Below, in pieces: positions 1-61,794 of a stretch of 64,000 nt of DNA. The stretch spans positions 1 to 64,000 of the forward strand of contig OX387610.1 of NCBI GenBank assembly GCA_947568835.1, read 5' to 3'. The stretch comes from Protonemura montana. Taxonomy: Eukaryota; Arthropoda; Insecta; Plecoptera; Nemouridae. Within the stretch, counting starts at the first letter, position 1. Each line of letters starts with the position of its first letter. Below the pieces are notes generated by a model that saw only the letters and a list, made by a program, of their open reading frames with translations, was not told where the DNA came from and ran no database searches. Position numbers and translations under genes: made by a program.

Positions 1-695
1 AAACCAAACCAAACCAAACCAAACCAAACCAAACCAAACCAAACCAAACCAAACCAAACCAAACCAAACCAAACCAAACCAAACCAAACCAAACCAAACC
101 AAACCAAACCAAACCAAACCAAACCAAACCAAACCAAACCAAACCAAACCAAACCAAACCAAACCAAACCAAACCAAACCAAACCAAACCAAACCAAACC
201 AAACCAAACCAAACCAAACCAAACCAAACCAAACCAAACCAAACCAAACCAAACCAAACCAAACCAAACCAAACCAAACCAAACCAAACCAAACCAAACC
301 AAACCAAACCAAACCAAACCAAACCAAACCAAACCAAACCAAACCAAACCAAACCAAACCAAACCAAACCAAACCAAACCAAACCAAACCAAACCAAACC
401 AAACCAAACCAAACCAAACCAAACCAAACCAAACCAAACCAAACCAAACCAAACCAAACCAAACCAAACCAAACCAAACCAAACCAAACCAAACCAAACC
501 AAACCAAACCAAACCAAACCAAACCAAACCAAACCAAACCAAACCAAACCAAACCAAACCAAACCAAACCAAACCAAACCAAACCAAACCAAACCAAACC
601 AAACCAAACCAAACCAAACCAAACCAAACCAAACCAAACCAAACCAAACCAAACCAAACCAAACCAAACCAAACCAAACCAAACCAAACCAAACC
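1..695. repeat. Perfect (AAACC)139 simple-sequence array
   Basis: 139 uninterrupted copies of the pentamer AAACC, with no mismatch seen. The array begins at the first base, so its true left extent is unknown. The C-rich strand reads 5' to 3' rightward, which is the orientation a left-hand telomere would have (G-strand GGTTT), but it is not the usual arthropod TTAGG motif. It could equally be an internal satellite. Confidence 0.97.
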
Positions 696-3245: not shown

Positions 3246-3794
3246 AGCCAGTAAAAAACAATGGGATTGTTCAGATGACTTAAAATCTACGATTGTTTAA
3301 TTGACAAAGAAAACTCACCACGTGGTTCAGTAGTAGATCCAGCTCGATGAAAGGATGTTGTCTCCAAGATCTCCCAGCTCGATGACAGGATGTTGTCTCC
3401 AAGATCTCTCAGCTTTGATTGACTGCTGTCTCTCAACATTGCAGTCCACCCGGCAATGAAACAACGTCATTAGTCACACAGTCAGGTGCCTCAGAATTGA
3501 CCACAGCCAGGAAAAGGGAGGCATCAAACTGACCGTGGAAAATTGGTGCCCGAATGGGAAATCGAACCCTGATCTCCACACGTGGTTATAATCACCTAAA
3601 TAGTTTTACATATTTGAGAGAGTAGCTGTGTTCATGATACTCCAATACTCGCCAAATGCAAGCAACGAGGAAGAGAGAATTTATTGAATTGTTGAATAAA
3701 TAACTTGATATTAGAGTTGATTGTACACAGCAGTAGACAAGTGAACCACGATGTATTTGACCCTGCTAGGGTAGACTAACCTGGTAATAAAATT

Positions 3795-15940: not shown

Positions 15941-16168
15941 ACGAAAAAAACAAAGAATTTAACCCATTTCACAGTTTCTGCATGAATATATAATTATTAT
16001 AACCACGACAAACACGATTATACAATCGTTTAAACACATTGGGGTCTCTTCTGAAAGTTCCTCATTGCATCCAAAAACACTCGACGTTGTTATGAATGGG
16101 AAGAATCAAGCGACGTCTTCAATTCTCGTAAGCTTACCTACCTGAGTGAGGTGGATGCAATTTGACAT
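15941..16168. other. Unique spacer between module C and the inverted 5S-like block
   Basis: A/T-rich sequence that recurs at ~30,690 and ~41,720 with the same neighbours. No gene is seen. Confidence 0.5.
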
Positions 16169-16445
16169 GCCTAGAGGTTGAAGGGATAAGAATAAAACTA
16201 CACTGCGCAGGGTCAGGTCATAGTCACCCATCCAATACCTGACCCAGTGCAGTGTTGGTAACTTCCATCCCCCCCAACCTCTCTCCCGATCTGGTCATGT
16301 GTTTGATGGTCACCCATCCATTGATGGCCCAGCGCAGTGTTGCTTAACTTTCATCCCTCCAACCTCTTTCCCGAACAGATCAAGTCATGGGTACGATGGT
16401 CACCCATCCAATACCTGAACTAGCGCAGTGTTGCTTAACTCACTG
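16169..16445 (-). repeat. Inverted 5S-rRNA-derived units, copy 1
   Basis: Three units in minus orientation, each with GTCACCCATCCAATACCTGA (the complement of a 5S box C-like segment) and TTGCTTAACTT (the complement of box A). The block opens with the leader CCTAGAGGTTGAAGGGATAA, shared with the forward arrays, followed by a short head-to-head palindrome: CACTGCGCAGGGTCAGGT against ACCTGACCCAGTGCAGTG. On the minus strand it lies directly downstream of the tRNA-Leu head. Confidence 0.85.
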
Positions 16446-16462
16446 ATCATCAGATCAACACG

Positions 16463-16533
16463 ATCTGAACCCACGCCCTCCGAGGAGGACTGCGACCTGA
16501 ACGCAGCGCCTTAGACCGCTCGGCCATCCTGAC
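16463..16533 (-). pseudogene. tRNA-Leu(CAG) head, 3' end replaced
   Basis: The minus strand begins GTCAGGATGGCCGAGCGGTC, a eukaryotic tRNA-Leu 5' end with an A box (TGGCCGAGCGG). The anticodon arm is CTGCG-TTCAGGT-CGCAG (anticodon CAG), followed by a long variable arm as expected for Leu. Homology stops in the T arm: GTGGGTTCAG continues into a hairpin (CAGATC/GATCTG) and then the 5S-like units, with no acceptor 3' strand. It cannot form a mature tRNA. It looks like the head of a chimeric Pol III-type repeat. Confidence 0.85.
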
Positions 16534-16735
16534 TTAATGGTGATGTGATATATAATTTTGTACAATCACTGTCCAGATATGTAGAAATAGAAATGAGTGT
16601 CTAATTTAGAACCAGCAGCATAGCGAATGTGCTTTCAAAAAAGGGCAAATAAAAAATATATATGATTTTATAGGAAATAAAAAGTAGCCTCGTTGATGTA
16701 TGCAATATTGCAAGAGAAAATAAAATTCAAAAAGT

Positions 16736-16806
16736 TGCATTGGCTGGGAATCGAACCCGGGCCGCCCGCGTCGCAGGCGAGCATTCTACCACTGAACCAC
16801 CGCTGC
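16736..16806 (-). tRNA. tRNA-Gly-like gene with altered anticodon (GCG), probably pseudogene
   Basis: A 71-nt cloverleaf on the minus strand beginning GCAGCGGTGGTTCAGTGGTA. The A box, the B box GGTTCGATTCC and a TTTTT terminator five bases downstream are present. The anticodon loop reads CTGCGAC, so the anticodon is GCG instead of the GCC of Gly tRNAs and of the other two copies here. Two acceptor pairs (4-69, 5-68) and one T-stem pair are mismatched. Transcription signals remain, but charging as a normal Gly tRNA is doubtful. Confidence 0.75.
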
Positions 16807-17283
16807 AGATATAAGTTTTGCAGGCAGTAACTCATCTTACCAGTTGGGATTATTTCCTCTGACTGATAGGGACATTGACCAATCTAATCTAAATAATAAT
16901 TAAAGTACTATTTTTGCAGTGTTTTTTGATTTTCTGGAATTTCCACTAGGGAGCTTAAACCAGCAAGCGTATGATGGACAGGAAGCTAGACTGGAAAGTT
17001 TATTGATTGAAGTTCATTGATTATTGTTGATCCACAAATAACAGAGTTTGATTTGGTTTGATCGCGGCTCAGTTTTTACAGATTCACTTTATGATAATAT
17101 TCTAGCTTAACATGTTTCCAGGGTTCAAACCAGCGCCTACTTACAACACGCATCGCGTTGTTTGCTTTGTTATTGCTTGAATAAATCTGAAACCCTTTCA
17201 AATCACTGCATGCCTTGACTTGCAAAGCTCTTTACTAGCGTCAAGTACTTGCTTCTACCATAAAGAAAGACTTAGGTTAGGTT
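16807..17283. other. Unique spacer after tRNA-Gly
   Basis: No gene recognised. The sequence is repeated with high similarity at ~31,557-32,035 and ~42,596-43,073, as part of the macro-repeat. Confidence 0.5.
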
Positions 17284-18917: not shown

Positions 18918-21434
18918 CGACATTCCTAGAGGTCGAAGGGATAAGAATAAAACCAAGCTGCGCTGGGTCACCGTATTGCATGGGTGACTATCATACACAT
19001 GACCAATTCTGTTCGGGAGAGAGGTTAGAGGGATGAAAGTTAAGCAACACTGAGCTGGGTCAGGTATTGGATAGGTGACCATCATACACATGACCAATTA
19101 CGTTCGGCAGAGGTTGGAGGGCTGCAAGTTAAGCTACACTACGCTGGGTCAGGTATTGGATGGGTAACCGTCAGACCAGTTCTGTACGGGAGAGGTTGGC
19201 AGAATGAAAGTTAATCAACCCTGCGCTAGGTCATGTTTTGAATGGATAACCATCATACACATGACCATTTCTTTTAGGGAGAGAGGTTAGTTGGAGGGCT
19301 GAAAGTCAAGAAACACTGCGCTGCGTCAGGGATAGGATGGGTGACCATCATACACATGTCCAGTCTTATTTGGGAGAGGTTGGAGGAATGAAAGTTAAGC
19401 AACACTGCGCTGGGTCAGGTGTTGGATGGGTAACCGCCAGACCAGTTCTATACGGGAGAGAGGTTGGAGAGATGAAAGTTAAGCAACACTGCGCTGGGTC
19501 AGGTATTGGATAGGTGACCATCATACACATGACCAATTCCGTTCGGGAGAGGTTGGAGGGCTGCAAGTCAAGCAACACTACGCTGGGTCAGGTATTGGAT
19601 GGGTGACTATCAAACAAATGACCAGTTTTATTTGGGAGAGAGGTTGGAGGGATGAGAGTAAAGCAACACTGTTCTGGGTCAGGTATTGGATAGAAAACCA
19701 TTATACACATAACTAGTTCTGTTCGGGAGAGAGGTTGAAGGGTGAAAGTTAAGCAGCACTGCGCTGGGTCAGGTATTGGATGGGTGACTATCAAACACAT
19801 GACCAGTTTTGTTTGGGAGAGAGGTTGGAGGGATGCAAGTTAAGCAACACTACGCTGGGTCAAGTATTGGATGGGTAACCGCCAGACCGGTTCTGTACGG
19901 GAGAGAGGTTGGAGGGTTGAAAGTAAAGCAACACTGCGCTGAGTCGGGTATTGGATGGGTGACTATCATACACATGATAGGTTCAATTCGGGAGAGAGGT
20001 TGGAGGGATGCAAATTAAGCAACACTGCGCAGAGTCGGGAATTGGATGGGTGACCATCACACAAATGACCAGTTCTGTTAGGGAGAGAGGTTGGAGGGAT
20101 GCAAGTAAGGCAACACTACGCTGGGTCAAGTATTGAATGGGTAACCACCAGACCGGTTCTGTACGGGAGAGAGTTTGGAGGGTTTAGAGTAAAGCAACAC
20201 TGCGCTGAGTCAGGTATTGGATGGGTGACCATCACACATACCATCAGCTCTATTCGGGAGAGACGTTGGAGGGATGCAAGTTGAGCAACACTACGCTGGG
20301 TCAGGTGTTGGATGGGTAACCGCCAGACCAGGTTTATACGGGAGGGAGGTTGGAGGGATGAGAGTTAAGCAACACTGCGCTGGGTCAGGTATTGGATGGA
20401 TGACTATCATACACATCAGCAATTCTGTCCGGAGGAGAGGTTGGAGGGATGAAAGTAAAGCAACACTGTTCTGGGTCAGGTTTTGAATGAATGACCATCA
20501 TACACATGACCATTTCTTTTAGGGAGAGAGGTTAGTTGGAGGGATGAAAGTCAAGGAACACTGCGCATGGTCAGGTATTGGATTGGTAAGCGCCAGACCA
20601 GTTCTGTACGGGAGAGAGGTTGGAGGGATGAAAGTAAAGCAACACTGCGCTGGGTCAGGTTTAGGATGGGTGACAATCATACACATGTCCAGTCCTATTT
20701 AGGAGAGGTTGGAGGGATGCAAGTTAGGCAACACTACGCTGGGTCAGGTATTGGATGGGTAACCGCCTGACCAGTTCTGTACGGGAGAGAGGTTGGAGGG
20801 ATGCATGTTAAGCAACATTCCGCTGAGTCAGGCATTGGATGGGTACCTGCTAGACCAGTTCTGTACGGGAGAAAGGTTGGAGGGATGAAAGTAAACCAAC
20901 ACTGCGCTGGATTAGATAATGGATGGGTGACCATCATACACATGAATAGTTATTTTCGGGAGAGAGGTTGGAGGGATGCAAGCTAAGCAACACTGTACAG
21001 AGTCGGGTATTGAATAGGTACACATCATTCACATGACCAGTTCATTTTCGGAGATAGGTTGGAGGGATGAAAGTAAGGCAACACTGCGCAGGGTCAGGTA
21101 TTGGATAGGTAACCGCCAGACCAGTTCTTTACGGGAGAGAGGTTGGAGGGATGAAAGTAAAGCAACACTGCGCTGGATCAGGTAATGGATGGGTGACCAT
21201 CATACACATGACCATTTCTATTCGGGAGAGAGGTTAAAGGGATGCAAGTTAAGCAACACTCCGCTGAGACTGGTATTGGATGGGTGACCAACATACACAT
21301 GACCAATTCTGTTCGGGAGAGAGGTTGGAGGGATGCAAGTTGAGCAACACTACGCTGGGTCAGGTATTGGATGGGTAACCGCCAGACCAGTTCTGAACGG
21401 GAGAGAGGTTGGAGGGATAAAAGAAAAGCAACAC
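18918..21434 (+). repeat. 5S-rRNA-derived satellite array 1 (~28 units)
   Basis: Head-to-tail units of two lengths, ~91 and ~84 bp. Each has AAGTTAAGCAACACTGCGCT (5S box A-like) and TTGGATGGGTGACC (box C-like), separated as in the 3' half of eukaryotic 5S rRNA. The 84-bp class keeps a 5S-like ACCGCC after the box C region; the 91-bp class has ACCATCATACACATG instead. The 5' half of 5S is missing, so no unit encodes 5S rRNA. The array ends at the CGTCGTGTGGGG junction with module A. Confidence 0.9.
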
Positions 21435-21880
21435 TGGCGTCGTGTGGGGCATGAAATGAGTGTATAAAGTATTTGCACGTACCTCGTCTTCAAGCAGCTG
21501 GCAGCGACACCAACTGTTGATATCTTCCCCTAACACAGGGGGTGTTAGCTACGCTCCCAGCTGTCTGGTTATCACCAACACCCCCCCTCCGCCTCGCTCC
21601 TTCAGCAGCGTCACGTGGCTGCCATTGTTGACTCCCCTGCATCCTGCGTCCAGCGTCCTGCGTCCAGCGGCCAGCAATTACGGCACTTGAAACTTTCACG
21701 GAGCACTTTGTCCGACTCTTTCCCCGAGTCCCTGCAAGAAAAAACAAACAATATTAGCTGATGTTGTAAATTAGGCGCTTGAAAATACCTCTAATTGTCT
21801 CAGATGCAGAGAAAAGCTGCAGACTCACTCAGTGTGGTACTGCAAGGGGGAGGATGCGGGATACAGACTTTAACTAACCC
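21435..21880. repeat. Module A, copy 2 (long type)
   Basis: Begins GTGTGGGGCATGAAATGAGT and has a TATA-like GTGTATAAAG, the C-rich stretch and CACGTGGC. The 12-bp minisatellite is reduced to one unit followed by GACTCTTTCCCCGAGTCC. It leads into the GC-rich spacer. Confidence 0.85.
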
Positions 21881-23616: not shown

Positions 23617-26600
23617 TGATACATGACCGTTTATTTTTGAGAAAGGTAAGTTGGAGGGATGAAAGTCAAGCAACACTTCGTTGGGTCAGGTTTAGGGTGG
23701 CTGACCACCATACACTTGACCCGTTTTACTTGGGAGAGAGGTTGGAGGGTGAAAGTTAAGTAGCACTGCGCTGGTTCAGGTATTGGATGGGTAAATATCT
23801 AATACATGACCAGTTTTGTTTGGGAGAGAGGTTGGAGGGATGCAAGTTAAGCAACACTACGCTGGGTCAGGTATTGGATGGGTAACCGCCAGACCAGTTC
23901 TGTACGGGAGAGAGGTTGGAGGGATGAAAGTAAAGCAACACTGCGCTGGGTCAGGTATAGGATGGGTGACCATCATACACATGTCCAGTCCTATTTAGGA
24001 GAGGTTGGAGGGATGCAAGTTAGGCAACACTACGCTGGGTCAGGTATTGGATGGGTAACCGCCAGACCAGTTCTGTACGGGAGAGAGGTTGGAGGGATAA
24101 AAGTTATGCAACACTGCGCCGAGTCTGGTATTAGATGGGTGAACATCTTACACATGATCAGTTCTGTTCGGGAGAGAGGTTGGAGGGATAAAAGTAAAGC
24201 AACACTGTTCTCGGTCAGGTTTTGGATAGATAACCATCATACACATGACAATTTCTTTTTGGGAGAGAGGTAAGTTGGAGGGATGAAAGTCATGCAACAC
24301 TGCGTTAGCTCAGGAATTTGATGGGGGACCATCAAACACACGACTGTTCTATTTGGGAGAAAGGTTAGTTGGAGGGATGAAAGTCAAGGAACACTGCGCA
24401 TGGTCAGGTATAAGATGGGTGACCATCATATACATGTCCAGTCCTATTTGGGAGAGGTTGGAGGAACGAAAGTTAAGCAACACTACGCTGGATCAAGTAT
24501 TGGATGGGTAACCGCCAGACCGGTTCTGTACGGGAGAGAGGTTGGAGGGTTGAAAGTAAAGCAACACTGCGCTGAGTCGGGTATTAGATGGGTGACCATC
24601 ATACACATGATAAGTTCAATTCAGGAGAGAGGTTGGAGGGATGCAAATTAAGCAACACTGCGCTGAGACGGGAATTGGATGGGTGACCATCACACAAATG
24701 ACCAGTTCTGTTAGGGAGAGAGGTTGGAGGGATGCAAGTTAAGCAACACTACGCTGGGTCAAGTATTGAATGGGTAACCGCCAGACCGGTTCTGTACGGG
24801 AGAGAGTTTGGAGGGTTTAAAGTAAAGCAACACTGCGCTGAGTCAGGTATTGGATGGGTGACCATCACACATACCATCAGCTCTATTCGGGAGAGACGTT
24901 GGAAGGATGCAAGTTGAGCAACACTACGCTGGGTCATGTGTTGGATGGGTAACCGCCAGACCAGTTCTATACGGGAGAGAGGTTGGAGGGATGAAAGTTA
25001 AGCAACACTGCGCTGGGTCAGGTATTGGATGGATGACCATCATACACATAAGCAATTCTGTCCGGAGGAGAGGTTGGAGGGATGAAAATAAAGCAACACT
25101 GTTCTGGGTCAGGTTTTCAATGGATGACCATCATACACATGACCATTTCTTTTAGGGAGAGAGGTTAGTTGGAGGGATGAAAGTCAAGGAACACTGCGCA
25201 TGGTCAGGTATAAGATGGGTGACCATCAGATACATGTCCAGTCCTATTTGGGAGAGGTTGGAGGAACGAAAGTTAAGCAACACTGCGCTGGGTCAGGTAT
25301 TGGATGGGTGACCATAATTCACATTACCAGTTCTGTTCGTGAGAGAGATTGGAGGGATGAAAGTTAAGGAACACAGTGCTGGGTCAGGCATAAGATGAGT
25401 GACCATCGAACACACGGCCAGTTCTGTTCAGGAGAGAGGTTGGAGGGATGAAAGTATTGCAACACTGCGCTGAGTCCGGTATTAGATGGGTGACCATCAT
25501 ACACATGATCAGTTCTGTTCGGGAAAAGGGTTGGAGGGATGAAAGTAAATAACACTGTTCTCGGTCAGGTTTTGGATGGATAACCATAATACACATGACC
25601 ATTTATTTTTGAGAGAGGTAAGTTGGAGGGATGAAAGTCAAGCAACACTTCGTTGGGTCAGGTTTAGGGTGGCTGACCACCATACACTTGACCCGTTTTA
25701 TTTGGGAGAGAGGTTGGAGGGTGAAAGTTAAGCAGCACTGCGCTGGTTCAGGTATTGGATGGGTGAATATCAAATACATGACCAGTTTTGTTTGGGAGAG
25801 AGGTTGGAGGGATGCAAGTTAAGCAACACTACGCTGGGTCAGGTATTGGATGGGTAACCGCCAGACCAGTTCTGTACGGGAGAGAGGTTGGAGGGATGAA
25901 AGTAAAGCAACACTGCGCTGGGTCAGGTTAGGAATGGGTGACCATCATACACATGTCCAGTCCTATTTAGGAGAGGTTGGAGGGATGCAAGTTAGGCAAC
26001 ACTACGCTTGGTCAGGTATTGGATGGGTAACCGCCAGACCAGTTCTGTACGGGAGAGAGGTTGGAGAGATAAAAGTTATGCAACACTGCGCTGAGTCAGG
26101 TATTAGATGGGTGAACATCTTACACATGATCAGTTCTGTTTGGGAGAGAGGTTGGAGGGATAAAAGTAAAGCAACACTGTTCTCGGTCAGGTTTTGGATG
26201 GATAACCATCATACACAAGACAATTTCCTTTTGGGAGAGAGGTAAGTTGGAGGGATGAAAGTCATGCAACACTGCGTTAGCTCAGGAATTGGATGGGGGA
26301 CCATCAAACACACGACTAGTTCTATTTGGGAGAGAGGTTGGAGGGATGAAAGTTAAGCAACACTGTTCTGGGTCTGGTATTGGATGGATAACTATTATAC
26401 ACATAACCAGTTCTGTTCGGGAGAGAGGTTGGATGGATGAATGTTAAACACTGTGCTGGGTCAGGTATTGGATTGGTGGCCATCACACATACCATCAGCT
26501 CTATTCGGGAGAGAGGTTGGAGGGATGCAAGTTGAGCAACACTACGCTGGGTCAGGTGTTGGATGGGTAACCGCCAGACCAGTTCTATACGGGAGAGAGG

Positions 26601-28078
26601 TTGGAGGGATGATAGTTAAGCAACACTGCGCTGGGTAAGGTATTGGATAGGTGACCATCATACACATGACCAATTCCGTGCGGGAGAGGTTGGAGGGCCC
26701 CAAGTTAAACAACACTACGCTGGGTCAGGTATTGGATTGGTAACCGTCAGACCAGTTCTGTACGGGAGAGATTGGCAGAATAAAAGTTAATCAATCCTGC
26801 GCTGGGTCAGGTATTGGATGGATGACCATAATACACATAAGCAGTTCTGTCCGGAGGAGAGGTTGGAGGGATGAAAGTAAAGCAACACTGCGCTGGGCCA
26901 GGTATTGGATGGGTACCTGCTAGACCAGTTCTGTACGGGAGAGAGGTTGGAGGGATGAAAGTAAAGCAACACTGCGCTGGATTAGGTAATGGATGGGTGA
27001 CTATCATATACATGACCAATTCTGTTCGGGAGAGAGGTTGGAGGGGTGCAAGTAAAGCATGATTGAGCTGGGCAGATATTTAGGATAGGTGACCATCATA
27101 CACATGACCAGTTCTGTTCGGGGGAGAGGTTGGAGTGATGAAAGTTAAGCAAGACTGCGTCGGGTCAGGTATAAGATGGGTGACCAGCATACACATGACC
27201 AGTTCTGTTCGGGAGAGAGGTTGGAGGGATGATAGTTAAGCAACACTGCGCTGGGTCAAGTATTGGATGGGGGACTACATACACATGACCAGTTCTGTTC
27301 GGGAGAGAGGTTGGATGGAAGAAAGTTGAGGAACACTGCACAGGGTCAGGTATTGGATTACACATACCATCAGCTCTATTTGGGAGACAGGTTGGAGCGA
27401 TGCAAGTTAAGCAACACTACGCTGGATCAGGTATTGGATGGGTAACCGCCGGACCAGTTCTGTACGGGAGAGAGGTTGGAGGGAACAAAAGTTATGCAAC
27501 ACTGCGCTGAGTCAGGTATTAGATGGGTGAACATCTTACACATGATCAGTTCTGTTTGGGAGAGAGGTTGGAGGGATAAAAGTAAAGCAACACTGTTCTC
27601 GGTCATGTTTTGGATGGATAACCATCATACACAAGACAATTTCCTTTTGGGAGAGAGGTAAGTTGGAGGGATGAAAGTCATGCAACACTGCGTTAGCTCA
27701 GGAATTGGATGGGGGACCATCAAACACACGACTAGTTCTATTTGGGAGAGAGGTTGGATGGAAGAAAGTTGAGGAACACTGCACAGGGTCAGGTATTGGA
27801 TCACACATACCATCAGCTCTATTTGGGAGACAGGTTGGAGGGATGCAAGTTTAGCAACACTACGCTGGATCAGGTATTGGATGGGTAACCGCCGGACCAG
27901 TTCTGTACGGGAGAGAGGTTGGAGGGATAAAAGTTTAGCAACACTGCGCTGAGTCAGGTATTGGATTGATGGCTATAATACAAACATTGCCAGTTCTGTA
28001 CGGGAGAGAGGTTGGATGGATGAATGTTAAGCAACACTGAGCTGGGTCAGGTATTGGATGGGTGACTACGGAATGGTT
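23617..28078 (+). repeat. 5S-rRNA-derived satellite array 2 (~50 units)
   Basis: The longest 5S-like array in the window, mixing 84- and 91-bp units. Multi-unit blocks recur within it, for example ~26,040-26,330 against ~27,460-27,750, showing higher-order duplication. It ends at TGGGTGACTACGGAATGG. No TTTT terminators are regularly spaced and no complete 5S gene is present. Confidence 0.9.
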
Positions 28079-28214
28079 TGGTGAAGTGTATACACCGGTC
28101 CTCGTGAAATCATCGAGGTTAAAGAGGCGTGAAGCTAAAAAATGTATGTTTTTTTTGTTTAACATTGGTTGCATTTAACATTGGCTCAGTTCTTTCAGAT
28201 TCACTACGATCATA
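28079..28214. repeat. Short linker repeated at 61.6 kb
   Basis: Sequence with AAATCATCGAGGTTAAAGAG and AACATTGGTTGCATTTAACA recurs at 61,564-61,720 in the same position between a 5S-like array and module A. Nothing coding is recognised. Confidence 0.6.
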
Positions 28215-30918: not shown

Positions 30919-31198
30919 GCCTAGAGGTTGAAGGGATAAGAATAAAACCACACTGCGCAGGGTCAGGTCATAGTCACCCATCCAATACCTGACCCAGTGC
31001 AGTGTTGGTCACTTCCATCCCCCCCAACCTCTCTCCCGATCTGGTCATGTGTTTGATGGTCACCCATCCATTGATGGCCCAGCGCAGTGTTGCTTAACTT
31101 TCATCCCTCCAACCTCTTTCCCGAACAGAACAAGTCATGGGTACGATGGTCACCCATCCAATACCTGAACTAGCGCAGTGTTGCTTAACTCACTGATC
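30919..31198 (-). repeat. Inverted 5S-rRNA-derived units, copy 2
   Basis: Same three-unit inverted block, leader and head-to-head palindrome as at 16.2 kb, with only scattered differences. Confidence 0.85.
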
Positions 31199-31212: not shown

Positions 31213-31283
31213 ATCTGAACCCACGCCCTCCGAGGAGGACTGCGACCTGAACGCAGCGCCTTAGACCGCTCGGCCATCCTGAC
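31213..31283 (-). pseudogene. tRNA-Leu(CAG) head, copy 2
   Basis: Matches the 16.5-kb copy: intact 5' half, CAG anticodon arm and variable arm, with the T arm and acceptor 3' strand replaced by the CAGATC/GATCTG hairpin and 5S-like units. The identical breakpoint shows that all copies descend from one fusion. Confidence 0.85.
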
Positions 31284-31485
31284 TTAATGGTGATGTGATA
31301 TATAATTTTGTACAATCACTGTCCAGATATGTAGAAATAGAAATGAGTGTCTAATTTAGAACCAGCAGCATAGCGAATGTGCTTTCAAAAAAGGGCAAAT
31401 AAAAAATATATATGATTTTATAGGAAATAAAAAGTAGCCTCGTTGATGTATGCAATATTGCAAGAGAAAATAAAATTCAAAAAGT

Positions 31486-31556
31486 TGCATTGGCTGGGAA
31501 TCGAACCCGGGCCGCCCGCGTGGCAGGCGAGCATTCTACCACTGAACCACCGCTGC
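31486..31556 (-). tRNA. tRNA-Gly(GCC)-like gene
   Basis: A 71-nt cloverleaf on the minus strand with anticodon loop CTGCCAC (GCC), the A and B boxes of Gly tRNAs and a TTTTT terminator just downstream. Acceptor pairs 4-69 and 5-68 and one T-stem pair are mismatched, as in copy 1. It could be transcribed, but the acceptor mismatches make function uncertain. Confidence 0.8.
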
Positions 31557-32037
31557 AGATATAAGCTTTGCAGGCAGTAACTCATCTTACCAGTTGGGAT
31601 TATTTCCTCTGACTGATAGGGACATTGACCAATCTAATCTAAATAATAATTAAAGTACTATTTTTGCAGTGTTTTTTGATTTTCTGGCATTTCCACTAAG
31701 GAGCTTAAACCAGCAAGCGTATGATGGACAGGAAGCTAGACTGGAAAGTTTATTGATTGAAGTTCATTGATTATTGTTGATCCACAAATAACAGAGTTTG
31801 ATTTGGTTTGATCGCGGCTCAAGTTTTTACAGATTCACTTTATGATAATATTCTAGCATAACATGTTTCCAGGGTTCAAACCAGCGCCTACTCACAACAC
31901 GCATCGCGTTGTTTGCTTTGTTATTGCTTGAATAAATCTGAAACCCTTTCAAATCACTGCATGCCTTGACTTGCAAAGCTCTTTACTAGCGTCAAGTACT
32001 TGCTTCTACCATAAAGAAAGACTTAGGTTAGGTTTCA
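31557..32037. other. Unique spacer after tRNA-Gly, copy 2
   Basis: Same sequence as 16,807-17,283 with few changes; no gene seen. Confidence 0.5.
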
Positions 32038-33600: not shown

Positions 33601-36600
33601 TTCCTAGAGGTCGAAGGGATAAGAATAAAACCACGCTGCGCTGGGTCACCGTATTGCATGGGTGACTATCATACACATGACCAATTCTGTTCGGGAGAGA
33701 GGTTGGAGGGATGAAAGTTAAGCAACACTGAGCTGGGTCAGGTATTGGATAGGTGACCATCATACACATGACCAATTACGTTCGGCAGAGGTTGGAGGGC
33801 TGCAAGTTAAGCAACACTACGCTGGGTCAGGTATTGGATGGGTAACCGTCAGACCAGTTCTGTACGGGAGAGGTTGGCAGAATGAAAGTTAATCAACCCT
33901 GCGCTAGGTCATGTTTTGAATGGATAACCATCATACACATGACCATTTCTTTTAGGGAGAGAGGTTAGTTGGAGGGATGAAAGTCAAGAAACACTGCGCT
34001 GGGTCAGGTATAGGATGGGTGACCATCATACACATGTCCAGTCTTATTTGGGAGAGGTTGGAGGAATGAAAGTTAAGCAACACTGCGCTGGGCCAGGTAT
34101 TGGATGGGTACCTGCTAGACCAGTTCTGTGTTGGAGGGATGAAAGTCAATAACACTGTTCTCGGTCAGGTTTTGAATGGATGACCATCATACACATGACC
34201 ATTTCTTTTAGGGAGAGAGGTTAGTTGGAGGGATGAAAGTCAAGGAACACTGCGCATGGTCAGGTATAAGATGGGTGACCATTATATACATGTCCAGTCC
34301 TATTTGGGAGAGGTTGGAGGAACGAAAGTTAAGCAACACTGCGCTGGGTCAGGTATTGGATGGGTGACCTTAATTCACATTACCAGTTCTGTTCATGAGA
34401 GAGATTGGAGGGATGAAAGTTAAGGAACACAGTGCTGGGTCAAGCATAGGATGGGTGACTATCAAACAAACGACCAGTTTTATTTGGGAGAGAGGTTGGA
34501 GGGATGAAAGTTAAGCAACACTGCGCTGGGTCAGGTATTGGATAGGTGACCATCATACACATGACCAATTCCGTTCGGGAGAGGTTGGAGGGCTGCAAGT
34601 CAAGCAACACTACGCTGGGTCAGGTATTGGATGGGTGACTATCAAACATATGACCAGTTTTGTTTGGGAGAGAGGTTTGAGGGATGCAAGTTAAGCAACA
34701 CTACGCTGGGTCAAGTATTGGATAGGTAACCGCCAGACCGGTTCTGTACGGGAGAGAGGTTGGAGGGTTGAAAGTACAGCAACACTGCGCTGAGTCGGGT
34801 ATTGGATGGGTGACCATCACACATACCATCAGCTCTATTTGGGAGAGACGTTGGAGGGATGCAAGTTGAGCAACACTACGCTGGGTCAGGTGTTGGATGG
34901 GTAACCGCCAGACCAGTTCTATACGGGAGAGAGGTTGGAGGGATGAAAGTTAAGCAACACTGCGCTGGGTCAGGTATTGGATGGATGACCATCATACACA
35001 TAAGCAATTCTGTCCGGAGGAGAGGTTGAAGGGATGAAAGTAAAGCAACACTGCGCTGGGCCAGGTATTGGATTGGTACCTGCTAGACCAGTTCTGTACG
35101 GGAGAAAGGTTGGAGGGATGAAAATAAAGCAACACTGTTCTGGGTCAGGTTTTGAATGGATGACCATCATACACATGACCATTTCTGTTGGGGAGAGAGG
35201 TTAGTTGGAGGGATGAAAGTCAAGGAACACTGCGCATGGTCAGGTATAAGATGGGTGACCATCAAATACATGTCCAGTCCTATTTGGGAGAGGTTGGAGG
35301 AACGAAATTTAAGCAACACTGCGCTGGGTCAGGTATTGGATGGGTGACCATAATTCACATTACCAGTTCTGTTCGTGAGAGAGATTGGAGGGATAAAAGT
35401 TAAGGAACACAGTGCAGGGTCAGGCATAGGATGGGTGACCATCGAACACACGGCCAGTTCTGTTCAGGAGAGAGGTTGGAGAGATGAAAGTATTGCAACA
35501 CTGCGCTGAGTCAGGTTTTAGATGGGTGACCATCATACAAACCATCAGCTCTATTCGGGAGAGACGTTGGAGGGATGCAAGTTGAGCAACACTACGCTGG
35601 GTCAAGTATTGGATGGGTAACCGCCAGACCGGTTCTGTACGGGAGAGAGGTTGGAGGGTTGAAAGTAAAGCAACACTGCGCTGAGTCGGGTATTGGATGG
35701 GTGACTATCATACACATGATAGTTCCAATTCGGGAGAGAGGTTGGAGGGATGCAAATTAAGCAACACTGCGCTGAGTCGGGAATTGGATGGGTGACCATC
35801 ACACAAATGACCAGTTCTGTTAGGGAGAGAGGTTGGAGGGATGCAAGTTGAGCAACACTACGCTGGGTCAGGTGTTGGATGGGTAACCGCCAGACCAGTT
35901 CTATACGGGAGAGAGGTTGGAGGGATGAAAGTTAAGCAACACTGCGCTGGGTCAGGTATTGGATGGATGACCATCATACACATAAGCAATTCTGTCCGGA
36001 GGAGAGGTTGGAGGGATGAAAGTAAAGCAACACTGCGCTGGGCCAGGTATTGGATTGGTACCTGCTAGACCAGTTCTGTACGGGAGAGAGGTTGGAGGGA
36101 TGAAAATAAAGCAACACTGTTCTGGGTCAGGTTTTGAATGGATGACCATCATACACATGACCATTTCTGTTAGGGAGAGAGGTTAGTTGGAGGGATGAAA
36201 GTCAAGGAACACTGCGCATGGTCAGGTATAAGATGGGTGACCATCAAATACATGTCCAGTCCTATTTGGGAGAGGTTGGAGGAACGAAATTTAAGCAACA
36301 CTGCGCTGGGTCAGGTATTGGATGGGTGACCATAATTCACATTACCAGTTCTGTTCGTGAGAGAGATTGGAGGGATAAAAGTTAAGGAACACAGTGCTGG
36401 GTCAGGCATAGGATGGGTGACCATCGAACACACGGCCAGTTCTGTTCAGGAGAGAGGTTGGAGAGATGAAAGTATTGCAACACTGCGCTGAGTCCGGTAT
36501 TAGATGGGTGACCATCATACAAATGATCAGTTCTTTTTGGGAAAAGGGTTGGAGGGATGAAAGTAAATAACACTGTTCTCGGTCAGGTTTTGGATGGATA

Positions 36601-37199
36601 ACCATCATACACATGACCATTTATTTTTGAGAGAGGTAAGTTGGAGGGATGAAAGTCAAGCAACACTTCGTTGGGTCAGGTTTAGGGTGGCTGACCACCA
36701 TACACTTGATCCGTTTTACTTGGGAGAGAGGTTGGAGGGTGAAAGTTAAGCAGCACTGCGCTGGTTCAGGTATTGGATGGGTGAATATCAAATACATGAC
36801 CAGTTTTGTTTGGGAGAGAGGTTGGAGGGATGCAAGTTAAGCAACACTACGCTGGGTCAGGTATTGGATAAGTAACCGCCAGACCAGTTCTGTACGGGAG
36901 AGAGGTTGGAGGGATGAAAGTAAAGCAACACTGCGCTGGATCAGGTAATGGATGGGTGACCATCATACACATGACCATTTCTATTCGGGAGTGAGGTTGG
37001 AGGGATGAAAGTAAAGCAACACTGCGCTGGATCAGGTAATGGATGGGTGACCATCATACACATGACCATTTCTATTCGGGAGAGAGGTTGGAGGGATGCA
37101 AGTTTAGCAACACTACGCTGGGTCAGGTATTGGATGGGTAACCGCCAGACCAGTTCTGAACGGGAGAGAGGTTGGAGGGATAAAAGAAAAGCAACACTG
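33601..37199 (+). repeat. 5S-rRNA-derived satellite array 3 (~40 units)
   Basis: Opens with the TTCCTAGAGGTCGAAGGG leader and ends at the same CGTCGTGTGGGG junction as array 1. It contains a nearly duplicated multi-unit block (~34,880-35,460 against ~35,845-36,440), consistent with unequal exchange. Confidence 0.9.
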
Positions 37200-41949: not shown

Positions 41950-42237
41950 ATGCCTAGAGGTTGAAGGGATAAGAATAAAACCACACTGCGCAGGGTCAGG
42001 TCATGGTCACCCATCCAATACCTGACCCAGTGCAGTGTTGCTAACTTCCATCCCCCCCAACCTCTCTCCCGATCCGAACTGGTCATGTGTTTGATGGTCA
42101 CCCATCCAATACCTGGCCCAGCGCAGTGTTGCTTAACTTTCATCCCTCCAACCTCTTTCCCGAACAGAACAAGTCATGTGTACGATGGTCACCCATCCAA
42201 TACCTGAACTAGCGCAGTGTTGCTTAACTCACTGATC
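41950..42237 (-). repeat. Inverted 5S-rRNA-derived units, copy 3
   Basis: Three units with the same leader and palindrome. The middle unit is more complete here (CCCATCCAATACCTGGCCCA) than in the other two copies, where it is shortened to CCCATCCATTGATGGCCCA, so this copy is probably closest to the ancestor. Confidence 0.85.
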
Positions 42238-42251
42238 ATCAGATCAACACG

Positions 42252-42322
42252 ATCTGAACCCACGCCCTCCGAGGAGGACTGCGACCTGAACGCAGCGCCT
42301 TAAACCGCTCGGCCATCCTGAC
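42252..42322 (-). pseudogene. tRNA-Leu(CAG) head, copy 3
   Basis: Same truncated tRNA-Leu with a D-loop substitution (GCGGTTTAAGG instead of GCGGTCTAAGG). The 3' breakpoint and hairpin are the same as in the other copies. Confidence 0.85.
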
Positions 42323-42524
42323 TTAATGGTGATGTGATATATAATTTTGTACAATCACTGTCCAGATATGTATAAATAGAAATGAGAGCCTAATTTAGAA
42401 CCAGCAGCATAGCGAATGTGCTTTCAAAAAAGGGCAAATAAAAAAAATATATGATTTTATAGGAAATAAAAACTAGCCTCGTTGATGTATGCAATATTGC
42501 AAGAGAAAATAAAATACAAAAAGA

Positions 42525-42595
42525 TGGATCGGCTGGGAATCGAACCCGGGCCGCTCGCGTGGCAGGCGAGCATGCTACCACTGAACCACCGCTGC
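42525..42595 (-). tRNA. tRNA-Gly(GCC)-like gene, copy 3
   Basis: A 71-nt cloverleaf on the minus strand with anticodon GCC. The anticodon stem is fully Watson-Crick (CTCGC/GCGAG). The acceptor has mismatches at 2-71 and 4-69, while 5-68 is paired, unlike copies 1 and 2. B box and downstream TTTTT terminator are intact. This copy has diverged most from the other two. Confidence 0.8.
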
Positions 42596-43073
42596 AGATA
42601 TAAGCTAGTCAGGCAGTAACTCATCTTGCCAGTTGGGATTATTTCCTCTGACTGATAGGGACATTAACCAATCTAATCTAAATAATAATTAAAGTACTAT
42701 TTTTGCAGTGTTTTTTGGTTTTCTGGCATTTCCACTAGGGAGCTTAAACCAGCAAGCGTATGATGGACAGGAAGCTAGACTGGAAAGTTTATTGATTGAA
42801 GTTCATTGATTATTGTTGATCCACAAATAACAGAGTTTGATTTGGTTTGATCGCGGCTCAGTTTTTACAGATTCACTTTATGATAATATTCTAGCATAAC
42901 ATGTTTCCAGGGTTCAAACCAGCGCCTACTCACAACACGCATCGAGTTGTTTGCTTTGTTATTGCTTGAATAAATCTGAAACCCTTTCAAATCACTGCAT
43001 GCCTTGACTTGCAAAGCTCTTTACTAGCGTCAAGTACTTGCTTCTACCATAAAGAAAGACTTAGGTTAGGTTT
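42596..43073. other. Unique spacer after tRNA-Gly, copy 3
   Basis: Same as 16,807-17,283; no gene seen. Confidence 0.5.
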
Positions 43074-45440: not shown

Positions 45441-47690
45441 TTCCTAGAGGTCGAAGGGATAAGAATAAAACCAAGCTGCGCTGGGTCACCGTATTGCATG
45501 GGTGACTATCATACACATGACCAATTCTGTTCGGGAGAGAGGTTAGAGGGATGAAAGTTAAGCAACACTGAGCTGGGTCAGGTATTGGATAGGTGACCAT
45601 CATACACATGACCAATTACGTTCGGCAGAGGTTGGAGGGCTGCAAGTTAAGCTACACTACGCTGGGTCAGGTATTGGATGGGTAACCGTCAGACCAGTTC
45701 TGTACGGGAGAGGTTGGCAGAATGAAAGTTAATCAACCCTGCGCTAGGTCATGTTTTGAATGGATAACCATCATACACATGACCATTTCTTTTAGGGAGA
45801 GAGGTTAGTTGGAGGGCTGAAAGTCAAGAAACACTGCGCTGCGTCAGGGATAGGATGGGTGACCATCATACACATGTCCAGTCTTATTTGGGAGAGGTTG
45901 GAGGAATGAAAGTTAAGCAACACTGCGCTGGGTCAGGTGTTGGATGGGTAACCGCCAGACCAGTTCTATACGGGAGAGAGGTTGGAGAGATGAAAGTTAA
46001 GCAACACTGCGCTGGGTCAGGTATTGGATAGGTGACCATCATACACATGACCAATTCCGTTCGGGAGAGGTTGGAGGGCTGCAAGTCAAGCAACACTACG
46101 CTGGGTCAGGTATTGGATGGGTGACTATCAAACAAATGACCAGTTTTATTTGGGAGAGAGGTTGGAGGGATGAGAGTAAAGCAACACTGTTCTGGGTCAG
46201 GTATTGGATAGAAAACCATTATACACATAACTAGTTCTGTTCGGGAGAGAGGTTGAAGGGTGAAAGTTAAGCAGCACTGCGCTGGGTCAGGTATTGGATG
46301 GGTGACTATCAAACACATGACCAGTTTTGTTTGGGAGAGAGGTTGGAGGGATGCAAGTTAAGCAACACTACGCTGGGTCAAGTATTGGATGGGTAACCGC
46401 CAGACCGGTTCTGTACGGGAGAGAGGTTGGAGGGTTGAAAGTAAAGCAACACTGCGCTGAGTCGGGTATTGGATGGGTGACTATCATACACATGATAGGT
46501 TCAATTCGGGAGAGAGGTTGGAGGGATGCAAATTAAGCAACACTGCGCAGAGTCGGGAATTGGATGGGTGACCATCACACAAATGACCAGTTCTGTTAGG
46601 GAGAGAGGTTGGAGGGATGCAAGTAAGGCAACACTACGCTGGGTCAAGTATTGAATGGGTAACCACCAGACCGGTTCTGTACGGGAGAGAGTTTGGAGGG
46701 TTTAGAGTAAAGCAACACTGCGCTGAGTCAGGTATTGGATGGGTGACCATCACACATACCATCAGCTCTATTCGGGAGAGACGTTGGAGGGATGCAAGTT
46801 GAGCAACACTACGCTGGGTCAGGTGTTTGATGGGTAACCGCCAGACCAGGTTTATACGGGAGGGAGGTTGGAGGGATGAGAGTTAAGCAACACTGCGCTG
46901 GGTCAGGTAATGGATGGATGACTATCATACACATCAGCAATTCTGTCCGGAGGAGAGGTTGGAGGGATGAAAGTAAAGCAACACTCTTCTGGGTCAGGTT
47001 TTGAATGAATGACCATCATACACATGACCATTTCTTTTAGGGAGAGAGGTTAGTTGGAGGGATGAAAGTCAAGGAACACTGCGCATGGTCAGGTATTGGA
47101 TTGGTAAGCGCCAGACCAGTTCTGTACGGGAGAGAGGTTGGAGGGATGAAAGTAAAGCAACACTGCGCTGGGTCAGGTTTAGGATGGGTGACAATCATAC
47201 ACATGTCCAGTCCTATTTAGGAGAGGTTGGAGGGATGCAAGTTAGGCAACACTACGCTGGGTCAGGTATTGGATGGGTAACCGCCTGACCAGTTCTGTAC
47301 GGGAGAGAGGTTGGAGGGATGCATGTTAAGCAACATTCCGCTGAGTCAGGCATTGGATGGGTACCTGCTAGACCAGTTCTGTACGGGAGAAAGGTTGGAG
47401 GGATGAAAGTAAACCAACACTGCGCTGGATTAGATAATGGATGGGTGACCATCATACACATGAATAGTTATTTTCGGGAGAGAGGTTGGAGGGATGCAAG
47501 CTAAGCAACACTGTACAGAGTCGGGTATTGAATAGGTACACATCATTCACATGACCAGTTCATTTTGGGAGATAGGTTGGAGGGATGAAAGTAAGGCAAC
47601 ACTGCGCAGGGTCAGGTATTGGATAGGTAACCGCTAGACCAGTTCTGAACGGGAGAGAGGTTGGAGGGATAAAAGTAAAGCAACACTGGC
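45441..47690 (+). repeat. 5S-rRNA-derived satellite array 4 (~25 units)
   Basis: Nearly the same as array 1 at a constant offset of about 26,518 bp, then shorter by ~266 bp (three units) near its end. It ends at the CGTCGTGTGGGG junction. Confidence 0.9.
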
Positions 47691-58284: not shown

Positions 58285-58697
58285 TAGGTTGGAGGGATGA
58301 AAGTTAAGCAACACTGTTCTGGGTCAGGTATTGGATGGATAACCATTATACACATAACTAGTTCTGTTCGGGAGAGAGGTTGGAGGGTGAAAGTTAAGCA
58401 GCACTGCGCTGGGTCAGGTATTGGATGGGTGACTTTCAAACACATGACCAGTTTTGTTTGGGAGAGAGGTTGGAGGGATGCAAGTTAAGCAACACTACGC
58501 TGGGTCAGGTATTGGATGGGTAACCGCCAGACCAGTTCTGTACGGGAGAGAGGTTAGAGGGATGAAAGTAAAGCAACACTGCGCTGAGTCAGGTATTGGA
58601 TGGGTGACCATCATACACATGATAAGTTCAATTCGGGAGAGAGGTTGGAGGGATGCAAGTTAAGCAACACTGCGCTGAGTCGGGTATTGGATGGGTG
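58285..58697 (+). repeat. 5S-rRNA-derived satellite array 5 (~5 units)
   Basis: Short forward array with the same 84/91-bp units, entered at GTAGGTTGGAGGGATGAAAG and left mid-unit at GATGGGTGAGTCTAGC. Both edges are abrupt, suggesting a transposed or recombined fragment. Confidence 0.9.
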
Positions 58698-60125
58698 AGT
58701 CTAGCAGTTGCTTATTTTGAAAAGATACTAACACGGGTATTAGCAATTAGCAGTAAGAGATGTGTTTGCATTTTCGAATCGAGCTTTAGCTGGATAATGG
58801 CGATTGACTAATTCGGAATGAGCTGTGTGTGCGCTCAGGGGCGGATCTAAGACTCAAAAGGCTGTCAGCAAACCTTTCCAATGGGCCCTTGTTCGTAGGA
58901 TGGGGGGGGGGGGGGGGGGGTTATGCCAAAAATCCTAAACGGCAATATATCCTATCAAGCATAAAATTCTTCTTAAACGTTCTATTTTGGCTACAATTTC
59001 TCATTCAGTAACTAGAAAAAATCCACCCTATACCCAGCAGTTGTCTTTGTTCCATACCGTCGCGTTGCTTTGTCGGCGCTGACCGACAAAGGGTAGAAGC
59101 GCGATAAGCGAGTCGATGGTACTCCGAGTTCAATGGATATTCAAGAGAATCCACGAATACGCTGCTAGCCAAGCTATAGACCTAACGTTACAAGTTACAG
59201 TTCGCAGGTTGAGTTATCTGCTGAAATTTCATAACATTTCTCTATCACCGATGTCAACCATAGAAAATATTTCTCACATTTTTCGTATATAAGGTGCTCT
59301 TAACTAACTTTTAATTTCATCAAATGTGGCACGGTTGTACCACTGAGAATTTCCACCCACTCGTTGCTCCCGCTTGGTCGAAGCAAGCCATGTTTAATTT
59401 TTTTTTAATTAAATGATTTCGATTGATTCGGGTGACGGAGACAAAGTGGTCAATCACGATTTCGCGGCCACGGAGACCAATGCTCTGCCGTGGGGAAATT
59501 TAAAGAAATTCTTTTTTCTCCACGAGGGAAATGTTTCCGATCTCGAGGTGGTTTTCAAAGTAAAGTTTTATTATGGATGCCGGTGCATAAGGAAATTGCA
59601 GCTAACAGCGCCAGCTCTTCAAATTTGAAAAGGTACTTGAAGGTAAGAGTGAATGGCCAGAGAATTTTAACAATATATCCTAAACTTTTTCCGATAAACG
59701 GTAGGTAACGATATAAACATTATGAAATCTTAGTGGGACCCAATCGGTGTTTTCAACGTAACTTCAAGTTCCCCGAGGTTTGAAATAGTTTGACACTTAG
59801 AACATTCGCGATTAAACGTAGGAAACACCATTACACGCCGATATGCGTGCATCATCTCGCTTTCAAGACTTTTCATGCTCAAATAATCTCCGTCAATGTT
59901 TACCTCAACGATTGATAAACACGTAACGATATTAAAAAGCGAGTAACCTACGATTGCATACGACAGTGGCTCCACTTAACGTGATGTTCCGAAAATCTGC
60001 ATTTTTGTCGGTAAAGTAGTCATTTGGTGGCTATCTTTCACGCAGAGACTGTACCATTGACGTTGTTTCTTTACCTAGAACCTACACTCAACGGTTTTAC
60101 TTTTATTGGTTTTATTGATCACATG
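58698..60125. other. Unique segment between 5S-like arrays
   Basis: Includes a 19-base G run (58,902-58,920) and a BED-finger relic. A minus-strand 81-codon frame at 59,730-59,975 is unrecognised; it has a Cys-x-x-Cys pair and no repeat character. Confidence 0.4.
59500..59640 (+). pseudogene. Decayed BED zinc finger (hAT transposase-type N-terminus)
   Basis: One frame gives WGNLKKFFFL (59,494-59,523), the aromatic start of a BED finger. After a frame change near 59,577 the second frame gives HKEIAANSASSSNLKRYLKV (to ~59,643), the SSSNLKRHL-type second half. The expected Cys-x-x-Cys between them is replaced by Val and Trp, and the final His is missing. A frameshift plus lost metal ligands means no working finger. 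AAGGTAAGA directly after could be an old splice donor. It is probably a relic of a hAT-like transposase. Confidence 0.55.
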
Positions 60126-60296
60126 ATTTTTTTTCGAAAACGATCTTTTAAACGATCTTGATCTTTTATAGAAACGAATTTGAATTTGATCGTAAAAAAA
60201 AACGATCGCGAACTTCGATCTTCGATCGCGATCGTTTTTTGACGACGATCTTGATCTTTTTAAAAGATCGATTTCAAAACGATCTTCCCCAACTAT
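60126..60296. repeat. GATC/AAACGATCTT simple, hairpin-forming repeat
   Basis: Degenerate repeats of AAACGATCTTGATC and the palindromic CGATCGCGATCG, with strong local inverted symmetry around 60,205-60,235. It ends exactly where a 5S-like unit begins (CTATGACCATCATACACACG). Confidence 0.8.
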
Positions 60297-61563
60297 GACC
60301 ATCATACACACGACTAGTTCTATTTGGGAGAGAGGTTGGAGGGATGAAAGTTAAGCAACACTGTTCTGGGTCAGGTATTGGATGGAAAACCATTATACAC
60401 ATAACTAGTTCTGTTCGGGAGAGAGGTTGAAGGGTGAAAGTTAAGCAGCACTGCGCTGGGTCAGGTATTAGATGGGTGACCATAATTCACATGACCAGTT
60501 CTGTTCGTGAGAGAGATTGGAGGGATAAAAGTTAAGGAACACTATGCGGGGTCAGGCATAGCATGGGTGACCATCGAACACACGGCCAGTTCTGTTCAGG
60601 AGAGAGGTTGGAGGGATGCAAGTTGAGCAACACTACGCTGGGTCAGGTATTGGATGGGTAACCGCCAGACCAGTTCTGTACGAGAGAGAGGTTGGAGGGA
60701 TGAAAGTAATGCAACACTGCGCTGAGTCAGGTATTAGATGGGTGACCATCATACACATGACCAGTTCTGTCCGGAGGAGAGGTTGGAGGGATAAAAGTAA
60801 AGCAACACTGTTCTGAGTCAGGTATTGGATGGATAACCATTATACACATAACTAGTTCTGTTCGGGAGAGAGGTTGGAGGGTGAAAGTTAAGCAGCACTA
60901 CGCTGGGTCAGGTATTGGATGGGTGACTATCAAACACATGACCAGTTCTGTTCGGGAGAGAGGTTGGAGGGATGCAAGTTAAGAAACAATACGCTGGGTC
61001 AAGTATTGAATGGGTAACCGCCAGACCAGTTCTGTACGGGAGAGAGGTTGGAGGGATGAAAGTAAAGCAACACTGCGCTGAGTCAGGTATTGGTCAGGTA
61101 TTGGATGGGTGACCATCACACAAATGACCAGTTCTGTTAGGGAGAGAGGTTGGAGGGATGAAAGTTAAGCAACACTGCGCTGGGTCAGGTATTGGATGGA
61201 TGACCATCATACACGTTACCAGTTCTGTTCGGAAGAAAGGTTGGAGGGTGAAAGTTAAGCAACACTGCCCAGAGTCGGGTATTGGATGGGTGAACATCAT
61301 ACACATGAACAGTTTTTTTCGGGAGAGAGGTTGGAGTGATGCAAGTTAAGCAACACTGTGCTGAGTCAGGTATTGGATGGGTGACTGCCACACAAATGAC
61401 TAGTTCTGTTCAGAAGAGAGGTAAGAGGGATGAAAGTTAAGCTACACTGCGCTGAGTCAGGTATTGGATGGGTGACCATCATACACATGACCAGTTCTGT
61501 TATCGGGAGAGAGGTTGGATGGATGAATGTTAAACAACACTGGCTAGGTAAGGTATTGGATAG
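60297..61563 (+). repeat. 5S-rRNA-derived satellite array 6 (~14 units)
   Basis: Forward array mixing 84- and 91-bp units, entered mid-unit and ending at GATAGGTGACCACAGAACTG. The linker that follows matches the one after array 2. Confidence 0.9.
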
Positions 61564-61794
61564 GTGACCACAGAACTGTTTGGCGAGTTGTATACACTGG
61601 TCCTTGGGAAATCATCGAGGTTAAAGAGGAGTGAAGCTAAAAAATTATGTTTTAGTTTAACATTGGTTGCATTTAACATTGGCTCAGTTCTTTCAGATTC
61701 ACTACGATCATATTCTAGCATTATATGTTTCCATGGTGCAAACCAGCGCCTACTCTCAACGAACTTGACGGCTAAACTGCATGCAGCGGAGTTG
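61564..61794. repeat. Linker between array 6 and module A
   Basis: The first ~160 bp match 28,079-28,214. The rest contains CAGCGCCTACT, also found near 17,131 after tRNA-Gly, so it is pieced from macro-repeat parts. No gene. Confidence 0.5.

Follow-up and report, generated by a model that had tools for sequence, protein, structure and literature searches.

A cut tRNA-Leu joined to 5S-like repeats at chromosome ends of Protonemura montana looks like a local joint, beside a satellite that appears to descend from a 5S-headed SINE

Near the chromosome ends of Protonemura montana, a tRNA-Leu(CAG) gene cut within its T-loop is followed by a short linker and 5S-like units, and this junction looks like a by-product of chromosome-end shuffling, that is, a local joint. 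Very probably, subtelomeric duplication of DNA followed by a break and a join accounts for the junction, and the repeat has a separate history that led from a SINE to a satellite. This view comes from a stretch of 64,000 nucleotides (hereafter the window), which forms the left end of contig C13 (OX387610.1, positions 1 to 64,000), and from searches of the whole genome (258 Mb in 34 contigs). Read on the minus strand, the junction block at 16.2 kb consists of 67 nt of tRNA-Leu(CAG), a 27-nt linker, about 2.5 5S-like units and an inverted half-unit. The parts of this block, its two further copies in the window and the accompanying tRNA-Gly copies are the following, with the basis of each assignment in brackets:

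16173..16218, plus strand: inverted half-unit, in which the minus strand has its first TTTT after the tRNA-Leu start
16220..16439, minus strand: about 2.5 units of the 91-bp 5S/SINE-derived repeat (unit matches)
16440..16466, minus strand: 27-nt linker with the CAGATC/GATCTG hairpin (sequence)
16467..16533, minus strand: tRNA-Leu(CAG) truncated to nt 1-67 by a break in the T-loop/B box, with an intact A box (67/67 identical to the native C3 gene)
16734..16807, minus strand: tRNA-Gly-derived gene copy with a changed anticodon, read as tRNA-Arg(GCG) (tRNA prediction, C3 comparison)
16467..16913, minus strand: entire segment, a copy of the tRNA-Gly/tRNA-Leu locus native to C3 (88.2% match to L023 1611-2067 in an alignment of 458 columns)
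30970..31189, minus strand: 5S-like units, second copy (unit matches)
31217..31283, minus strand: truncated tRNA-Leu, second copy (same breakpoint)
31484..31557, minus strand: tRNA-Gly(GCC)-like, second copy (tRNA prediction)
42003..42228, minus strand: 5S-like units, third copy (unit matches)
42256..42322, minus strand: truncated tRNA-Leu, third copy (same breakpoint)
42523..42596, minus strand: tRNA-Gly(GCC)-like, third copy (tRNA prediction)

The initial annotation had described a tRNA-Leu 5' half with a good A box. The gene, its strand and the intact A box (TGGCCGAGCGG) were recovered, but the retained part is no 5' half, as it extends over 67 nt, or about 80% of the gene, through the 'GGGTTC' of the T-loop. 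The B box, whose consensus is GGTTCRANYCC, is cut at this point (GGTTCAGATCG, two mismatches to that consensus), and the fragment scores 18.8 bits against the Rfam tRNA model, under the gathering score. The predicted CAGATC/GATCTG hairpin indeed sits between tRNA-Leu and the 5S units, in the linker (16466-16440), and the breakpoint said to recur at 31.2 and 42.2 kb was found at 31217 and 42256. The 5S ancestry proposed for the units following tRNA-Leu was likewise corroborated, with a local score of 51 for the 91-bp unit against the genome's 5S gene, compared with a maximum of 28 in 2000 mononucleotide shuffles. For the linker, comparison with five candidate sources (including the 5S head, the unit and the tRNA 3' end) gave shuffle p values of 0.056-0.57, the lowest being that for the 5S gene. 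At low threshold, Rfam returned, besides two tRNAs, three sub-threshold matches to unrelated families between 15800 and 28500. Of the three tRNA-Gly copies in the window, the one nearest the telomere reads as tRNA-Arg(GCG) and the other two as Gly(GCC).

A 104-nt query located nine tRNA-Leu-like places inside chromosomes, and ARAGORN predicted eight tRNA-Leu(CAG) genes in the eight loci fetched there, none of them in L028. Six of these eight native loci were compared with the window, using matches longer than 60 nt at E 1e-8. At 19.07 Mb on C3 (L023), tRNA-Gly(GCC) and tRNA-Leu(CAG) lie in the same order and at similar spacing as in the window, and the two are colinear over 458 bp at 88% identity. 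Averaged over the 31 junction copies found in the genome (see below), the substitutions relative to C3 amount to 12.5/104 in the upstream part, 3.6/71 in tRNA-Gly, 22.0/201 in the spacer (a divergence of about 11%) and 0.3/67 in tRNA-Leu, where 24 of the 31 copies have none at all. Directly past the break at nt 67, a mean of 7.0 of the 16 aligned bases differ from C3 in these copies, with gaps. A gradual decay of the tRNA-Leu 3' end in place of a break was discarded, given that 67 unchanged bases are followed at once by seven differing ones in 16. Since the native spacer, tRNA-Gly and the upstream flank all accompany tRNA-Leu, the segment was copied as DNA; judged by its sequence, the tRNA part is no SINE head but reproduces the C3 pair at the DNA level. 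Unlike a tRNA-headed SINE, the block includes genomic flank, has a cut B box and lacks dispersed copies at up to three mismatches.

The break itself could have another cause, namely the insertion of a 5S-headed SINE or another mobile element into the T-loop of a subtelomeric tRNA-Leu copy, which we regard as improbable. Dada and Mutsu, target-site-specific LINE families that insert in tRNA or 5S genes, were also considered, and no such element was noticed at the junction. The 5S-like units begin at most 27 nt from the break, and two (L022 and L026) of the eight fetched native loci have 91-bp repeats of the same family within 2 kb of tRNA-Leu, as an insertion would have it. The far side of such an insertion is what the data speak against: a search of the window and of the adjoining 40 kb, allowing 1 mismatch, gave no match to the missing 16-nt 3' part of tRNA-Leu, no renewed similarity between the window and C3 was seen downstream of the break (2 kb of C3 flank, E 1e-8), and neither a SINE body nor a SINE tail was found in the window. 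Shorter 11-mers of the B box matched the tRNA-Gly copies and one place near 29.5 kb.

To describe the genomic distribution of the junction, we took contig ends as chromosome ends, a telomeric repeat being seen at C13 only. A 40-nt junction pattern matched 31 places in the genome at three mismatches or fewer, 30 of them exactly, and its reversed control matched none (40 of 51 candidates were scored in a first-look search; the count relied on is 31). Thirty of these copies sit on nine large contigs, no further than about 82 kb from a contig end, and each of them reads outward; the remaining one is on the 65-kb contig C28, a fragment of undefined orientation. This placement on nine contig ends in a single orientation, plus the C28 copy, is that of a subtelomeric segmental duplication. 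Dispersed copies of the tRNA-Leu/5S junction, as envisaged in the initial annotation, did not materialize, none of the 31 matches being away from contig ends. The spacer between tRNA-Gly and tRNA-Leu gave 33 matches, namely 31 at contig ends, one on C28 and one on C3, and a copy at a contig end of C4 (L072) is without the junction, its tRNA-Leu being cut after about 20 nt. The number of 5S-like units differs among the junction blocks, and the distance from the tRNA start to the first TTTT is 336-359 nt in 21 of the 31 copies and 433-434 nt in the other 10. One copy (L029; G000:C16:16224-20344) carries a palindromic insertion, in which a second, inverted version of the tRNA-Leu 5' part sits inside the first; this suggests template switching.

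Could the block be retained for a function? If the block were an active Pol III unit, transcription would be driven by the tRNA-Leu A box together with the 5S internal control regions and would give a structured RNA of about 340-440 nt, terminated in the inverted half-unit by the first TTTT; either the RNA or bound TFIIIC/TFIIIA would then act at chromosome ends, for example as a boundary. The intact A box and the position of the first TTTT, 336-434 nt from the tRNA start in 31/31 copies, agree with such a unit, and none of 100 shuffles folds as stably as the predicted 340-nt RNA (MFE z -4.1), an extra stability that arises in part because of the inverted half-unit. The unchanged tRNA-Leu of 24 copies, next to a tRNA-Gly with its mean of 3.6 changes, points the same way: in a hand calculation, half of the spacer rate of 22/201 would give 3.7 expected changes over 67 nt, and the Poisson P(0) is about 0.026. 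Also in line with it, the 94-nt windows of lowest diversity in the core overlap the junction: they start 20-22 nt into tRNA-Leu and run through its 3' part and the linker into the beginning of the 5S units. Against it, the B box is broken, the diversity of the 5S units (0.016) is near that of the spacer (0.019), and the 94-nt window from the tRNA-Leu start ranks only 78th of 848 for low diversity (diversity was calculated from 30 of the 31 copies, L029 being left out for its palindromic insertion). In the arrays, conservation of the 5S-derived part is 0.914 versus 0.862 for the rest, a small excess that is matched in 10 of the 91 circular shifts (counting the observed one), and the idea of a special conservation of the 5S promoter boxes was dropped on that ground. 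Moreover, gene conversion from the eight near-identical tRNA-Leu genes would also preserve the head; by sequence alone, either mild constraint or gene conversion would yield both the unchanged head and the low-diversity windows. We thus consider an active Pol III unit unlikely, about as much so as the insertion, and a function of the block in general possible but unlikely; we infer that it has none. Slightly less probable still is the joint claim that the block of cut tRNA-Leu and 5S-SINE units would be retained, as a Pol III unit or a TFIIIC/TFIIIA landing site oriented towards the telomere, its tRNA-Leu head staying the same while the neighboring tRNA-Gly decays. The DNA-copy explanation has its own difficulties, among them the near absence of changes in tRNA-Leu next to a spacer about 11% off C3, the low-diversity windows at the junction, the stable predicted fold and the 27-nt linker, which it leaves unaccounted for.

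The 5S-like sequence leads to a different element. The head of this element (GAACGGTTTGGCGTG...) has 4,020 genome matches at three mismatches or fewer in 37, spread over C1, C2 and most of C3 among the matches listed. In the first dispersed copies read, the outermost unit was preceded by more 5S gene sequence, and eight copies (L064-L071) share one architecture, in which a 5S-derived head is followed by a body of about 285 nt and the whole ends in an AAT tail. The tail is present in 8/8 copies and the head lies 418-424 nt before it in the six copies with one unit; in L071, the head is identical to the genome's 5S gene at 67 of 78 positions, the match starting at nt 17 of 5S. Six of the seven testable copies are bordered by exactly matching flanks, 14, 10, 9, 11, 13 and 11 bp long; in a control of 42 mismatched flank pairs the mean was 4.7 and the maximum 10, above which the flanks of L067 and L068 (10 and 9 nt) do not rise. 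The shared flank of L065 is 5, and L066 is without a 5' flank, hence the seven testable copies. These eight were picked from the listed heads with 0 mismatches, and L061-L063, described below, as listed inverted pairs, so that neither set is random. With its 5S-derived head, its dispersed copies with shared flanks and its simple 3' tail, the dispersed element is, by its sequence features, a 5S-headed SINE of the SINE3 type. Compared with the window, the SINE gave no match beyond its head.

At L061, L062 and L063, arrays of this SINE stand tail to tail in inverted orientation, 2.5-3.3 kb apart, with an interior that is partly common to them and that lies in L063 in the opposite orientation to L061 and L062. 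The inverted pairs had raised the idea of a foldback transposon with 5S terminal inverted repeats, which was rejected, as a SINE body lies behind the array in 6/6 arms; an AAT-like end seen at one locus (L061) is a second point against it.

The 91-bp unit is the inner part of the SINE head. A 45-mer of the unit has 26,665 matches in the genome at two mismatches or fewer, which run along C1 into C2 among the matches listed. The window holds six plus-strand arrays of about 5 to 49 units, two of which adjoin a decayed SINE head (all delimited by unit matches):

18928..21436, plus strand: array of about 28 units
23621..28066, plus strand: array of about 49 units, followed by a decayed SINE 5S head at 28076-28112 (78% over 37 nt)
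33606..37199, plus strand: array of about 40 units
45446..47688, plus strand: array of about 25 units
58286..58698, plus strand: short array of about 4.5 units
60296..61570, plus strand: array of about 14 units, followed by a decayed SINE 5S head at 61578-61614 (78% over 37 nt)

Dispersed copies show intermediate numbers. By motif count, six of the eight SINE copies have one unit, L066 has none and L068 has four, and the six arms of L061-L063 have 10, 13, 9, 6, 5 and 4; L026 has one unit, and L022 has eight without a recognized body. Between head and body there are accordingly 0 (one copy), 1, 4, 5, 6, 9, 10 or 13 units across 14 arms or copies, counted with L026. L061 and L062 go back to the same composite (96% alike over 4,664 bp) and yet differ in unit number; the counts of these two therefore do not stand for independent insertions. 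With a tandem unit that is part of a SINE and with intermediates in the same genome, the repeat is built like other SINE-derived satellites, and it appears from sequence comparison to descend from the 5S-headed SINE through internal expansion of the 91-bp piece, in the direction from SINE to satellite. The earlier idea of a SINE turned into a tandem repeat is upheld to this extent, with the correction that the SINE in question is 5S-headed with AAT tails and not tRNA-headed. What speaks against this route is that the arrays of the window have decayed SINE heads and no body.

Divergence from 5S was compared using 220 of 250 unit matches (at least 81/91 positions), and 217 of these entered the conservation profile, with the three core units kept apart. 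The mean match to the 5S 45-mer is 82% in L022 and 84% in L026 and L061-L063 among the dispersed units (48 units together), 78% in the core units (three units only), 75-77% in the four largest arrays of the window, 79 and 81% in its two smaller ones and 82 and 83% in the C13 arrays at 64-84 kb. Since the smaller C13 arrays (58-84 kb, 79-83%) are nearer to 5S, divergence is no simple mark of subtelomeric position. The core was discarded as founder of the satellite, on account of its 78% match (three units) versus 82-84% for dispersed units and of the SINE copies with graded unit numbers. A tRNA-Leu-headed chimeric SINE whose 5S body founded the satellite, the Pol III-type origin first put forward, has in its favor the tRNA-5S order in one orientation and the A box, but it is very improbable and was abandoned, because its copies are confined to contig ends (zero of 31 elsewhere) and carry the native C3 spacer and tRNA-Gly along, the three core units are further from 5S than the dispersed ones, and a separate 5S-headed SINE accounts for the satellite.

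We propose that a segment with tRNA-Gly(GCC) and tRNA-Leu(CAG), still present on C3, would have been duplicated as DNA into a chromosome end, where the tRNA-Leu copy would have broken in its T-loop and been joined to the 5S-like repeat, presumably by end joining or template switching. Microhomology may have aided the joining, as GGTTC is common to the tRNA B box and the SINE 5S head. The joined block might then have spread with the subtelomeric macro-repeat via recombination between chromosome ends. The 5S-headed SINE would have spread by retrotransposition before the 91-bp piece of its head expanded in tandem; the longest arrays among those read are the subtelomeric ones. A Pol III-like composite can thus arise by plain subtelomeric rearrangement, and for such composites the source locus should be searched for before a new retroelement is called. 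One genome also seems to hold the steps from SINE to satellite, with 1-13 head units in SINE copies and arrays of up to about 49 units, and these graded copies make the proposed route directly measurable, in a 5S-headed SINE.

A satellite derived from 5S rDNA, PcP190, is reportedly present in the frog Physalaemus cuvieri; the satellite described here likewise has 5S rRNA ancestry and differs in that its route appears to have passed through a SINE. SINE-derived subtelomeric satellites are already known in reptiles. Work on squamates describes SINE-derived satellites (sSats) as tandem repeats from part of the Squam1/2/3 SINEs, with longer arrays favoring subtelomeres (PMC10702118). Common to both systems are tandem repeats made from part of a SINE and, in the same description, a longer terminal unit that reaches the SINE end (PMC10702118), whereas the source SINEs there are Squam1/2/3 and here a 5S-headed family, with the array inside the SINE between head and body. 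SINEs with 5S heads (SINE3) are reported from fish, mammals and insects (PMC3272025), and HaSE3 of Helicoverpa, for example, has a 5S-derived head with box A/IE/C, a separate body and target duplications like the family found here (PMC3272025). The difference is the tandem expansion of the head in P. montana: the term 'tandem' is absent from PMC3272025. The Cassandra and Ajax TRIMs carry 5S sequence in their LTRs (PMC7215508, PMC10886601). They resemble the present family as retroelements with 5S promoter sequence, and Cassandra also as an element in long tandem arrays; in contrast, no LTR structure was seen in the eight copies studied here, which end in an AAT tail and whose shared flanks measure 9-14 bp, unlike the 5-bp duplications of Ajax (PMC10886601). 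Within the accessible portions of the open-licence literature, we came across neither a satellite traced to a 5S-headed SINE nor this tRNA/5S joint.

Several further features of the subtelomere were observed. The window starts at a chromosome end, with a telomere-like repeat identified by a repeat scan:

1..695, no strand assigned: telomere-like (AAACC)n

This motif, i.e. TTTGG, is the same as that proposed for Sitophilus oryzae (PMC12134996). From 3339 to 16000, the window consists of a tandem 1340-bp subtelomeric unit with an embedded 35-bp repeat, and one copy of the 1340-bp repeat contains, on the minus strand at 6249-7541, a reverse transcriptase frame (Pfam RVT_1, E 2e-28) that seems to belong to a non-LTR retrotransposon. 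Real 5S genes occur at the beginning of C11 (G000:C11:70-105743, represented in part by L012-L020) in both orientations, recurring about every 9.5 kb through the first 50 kb.
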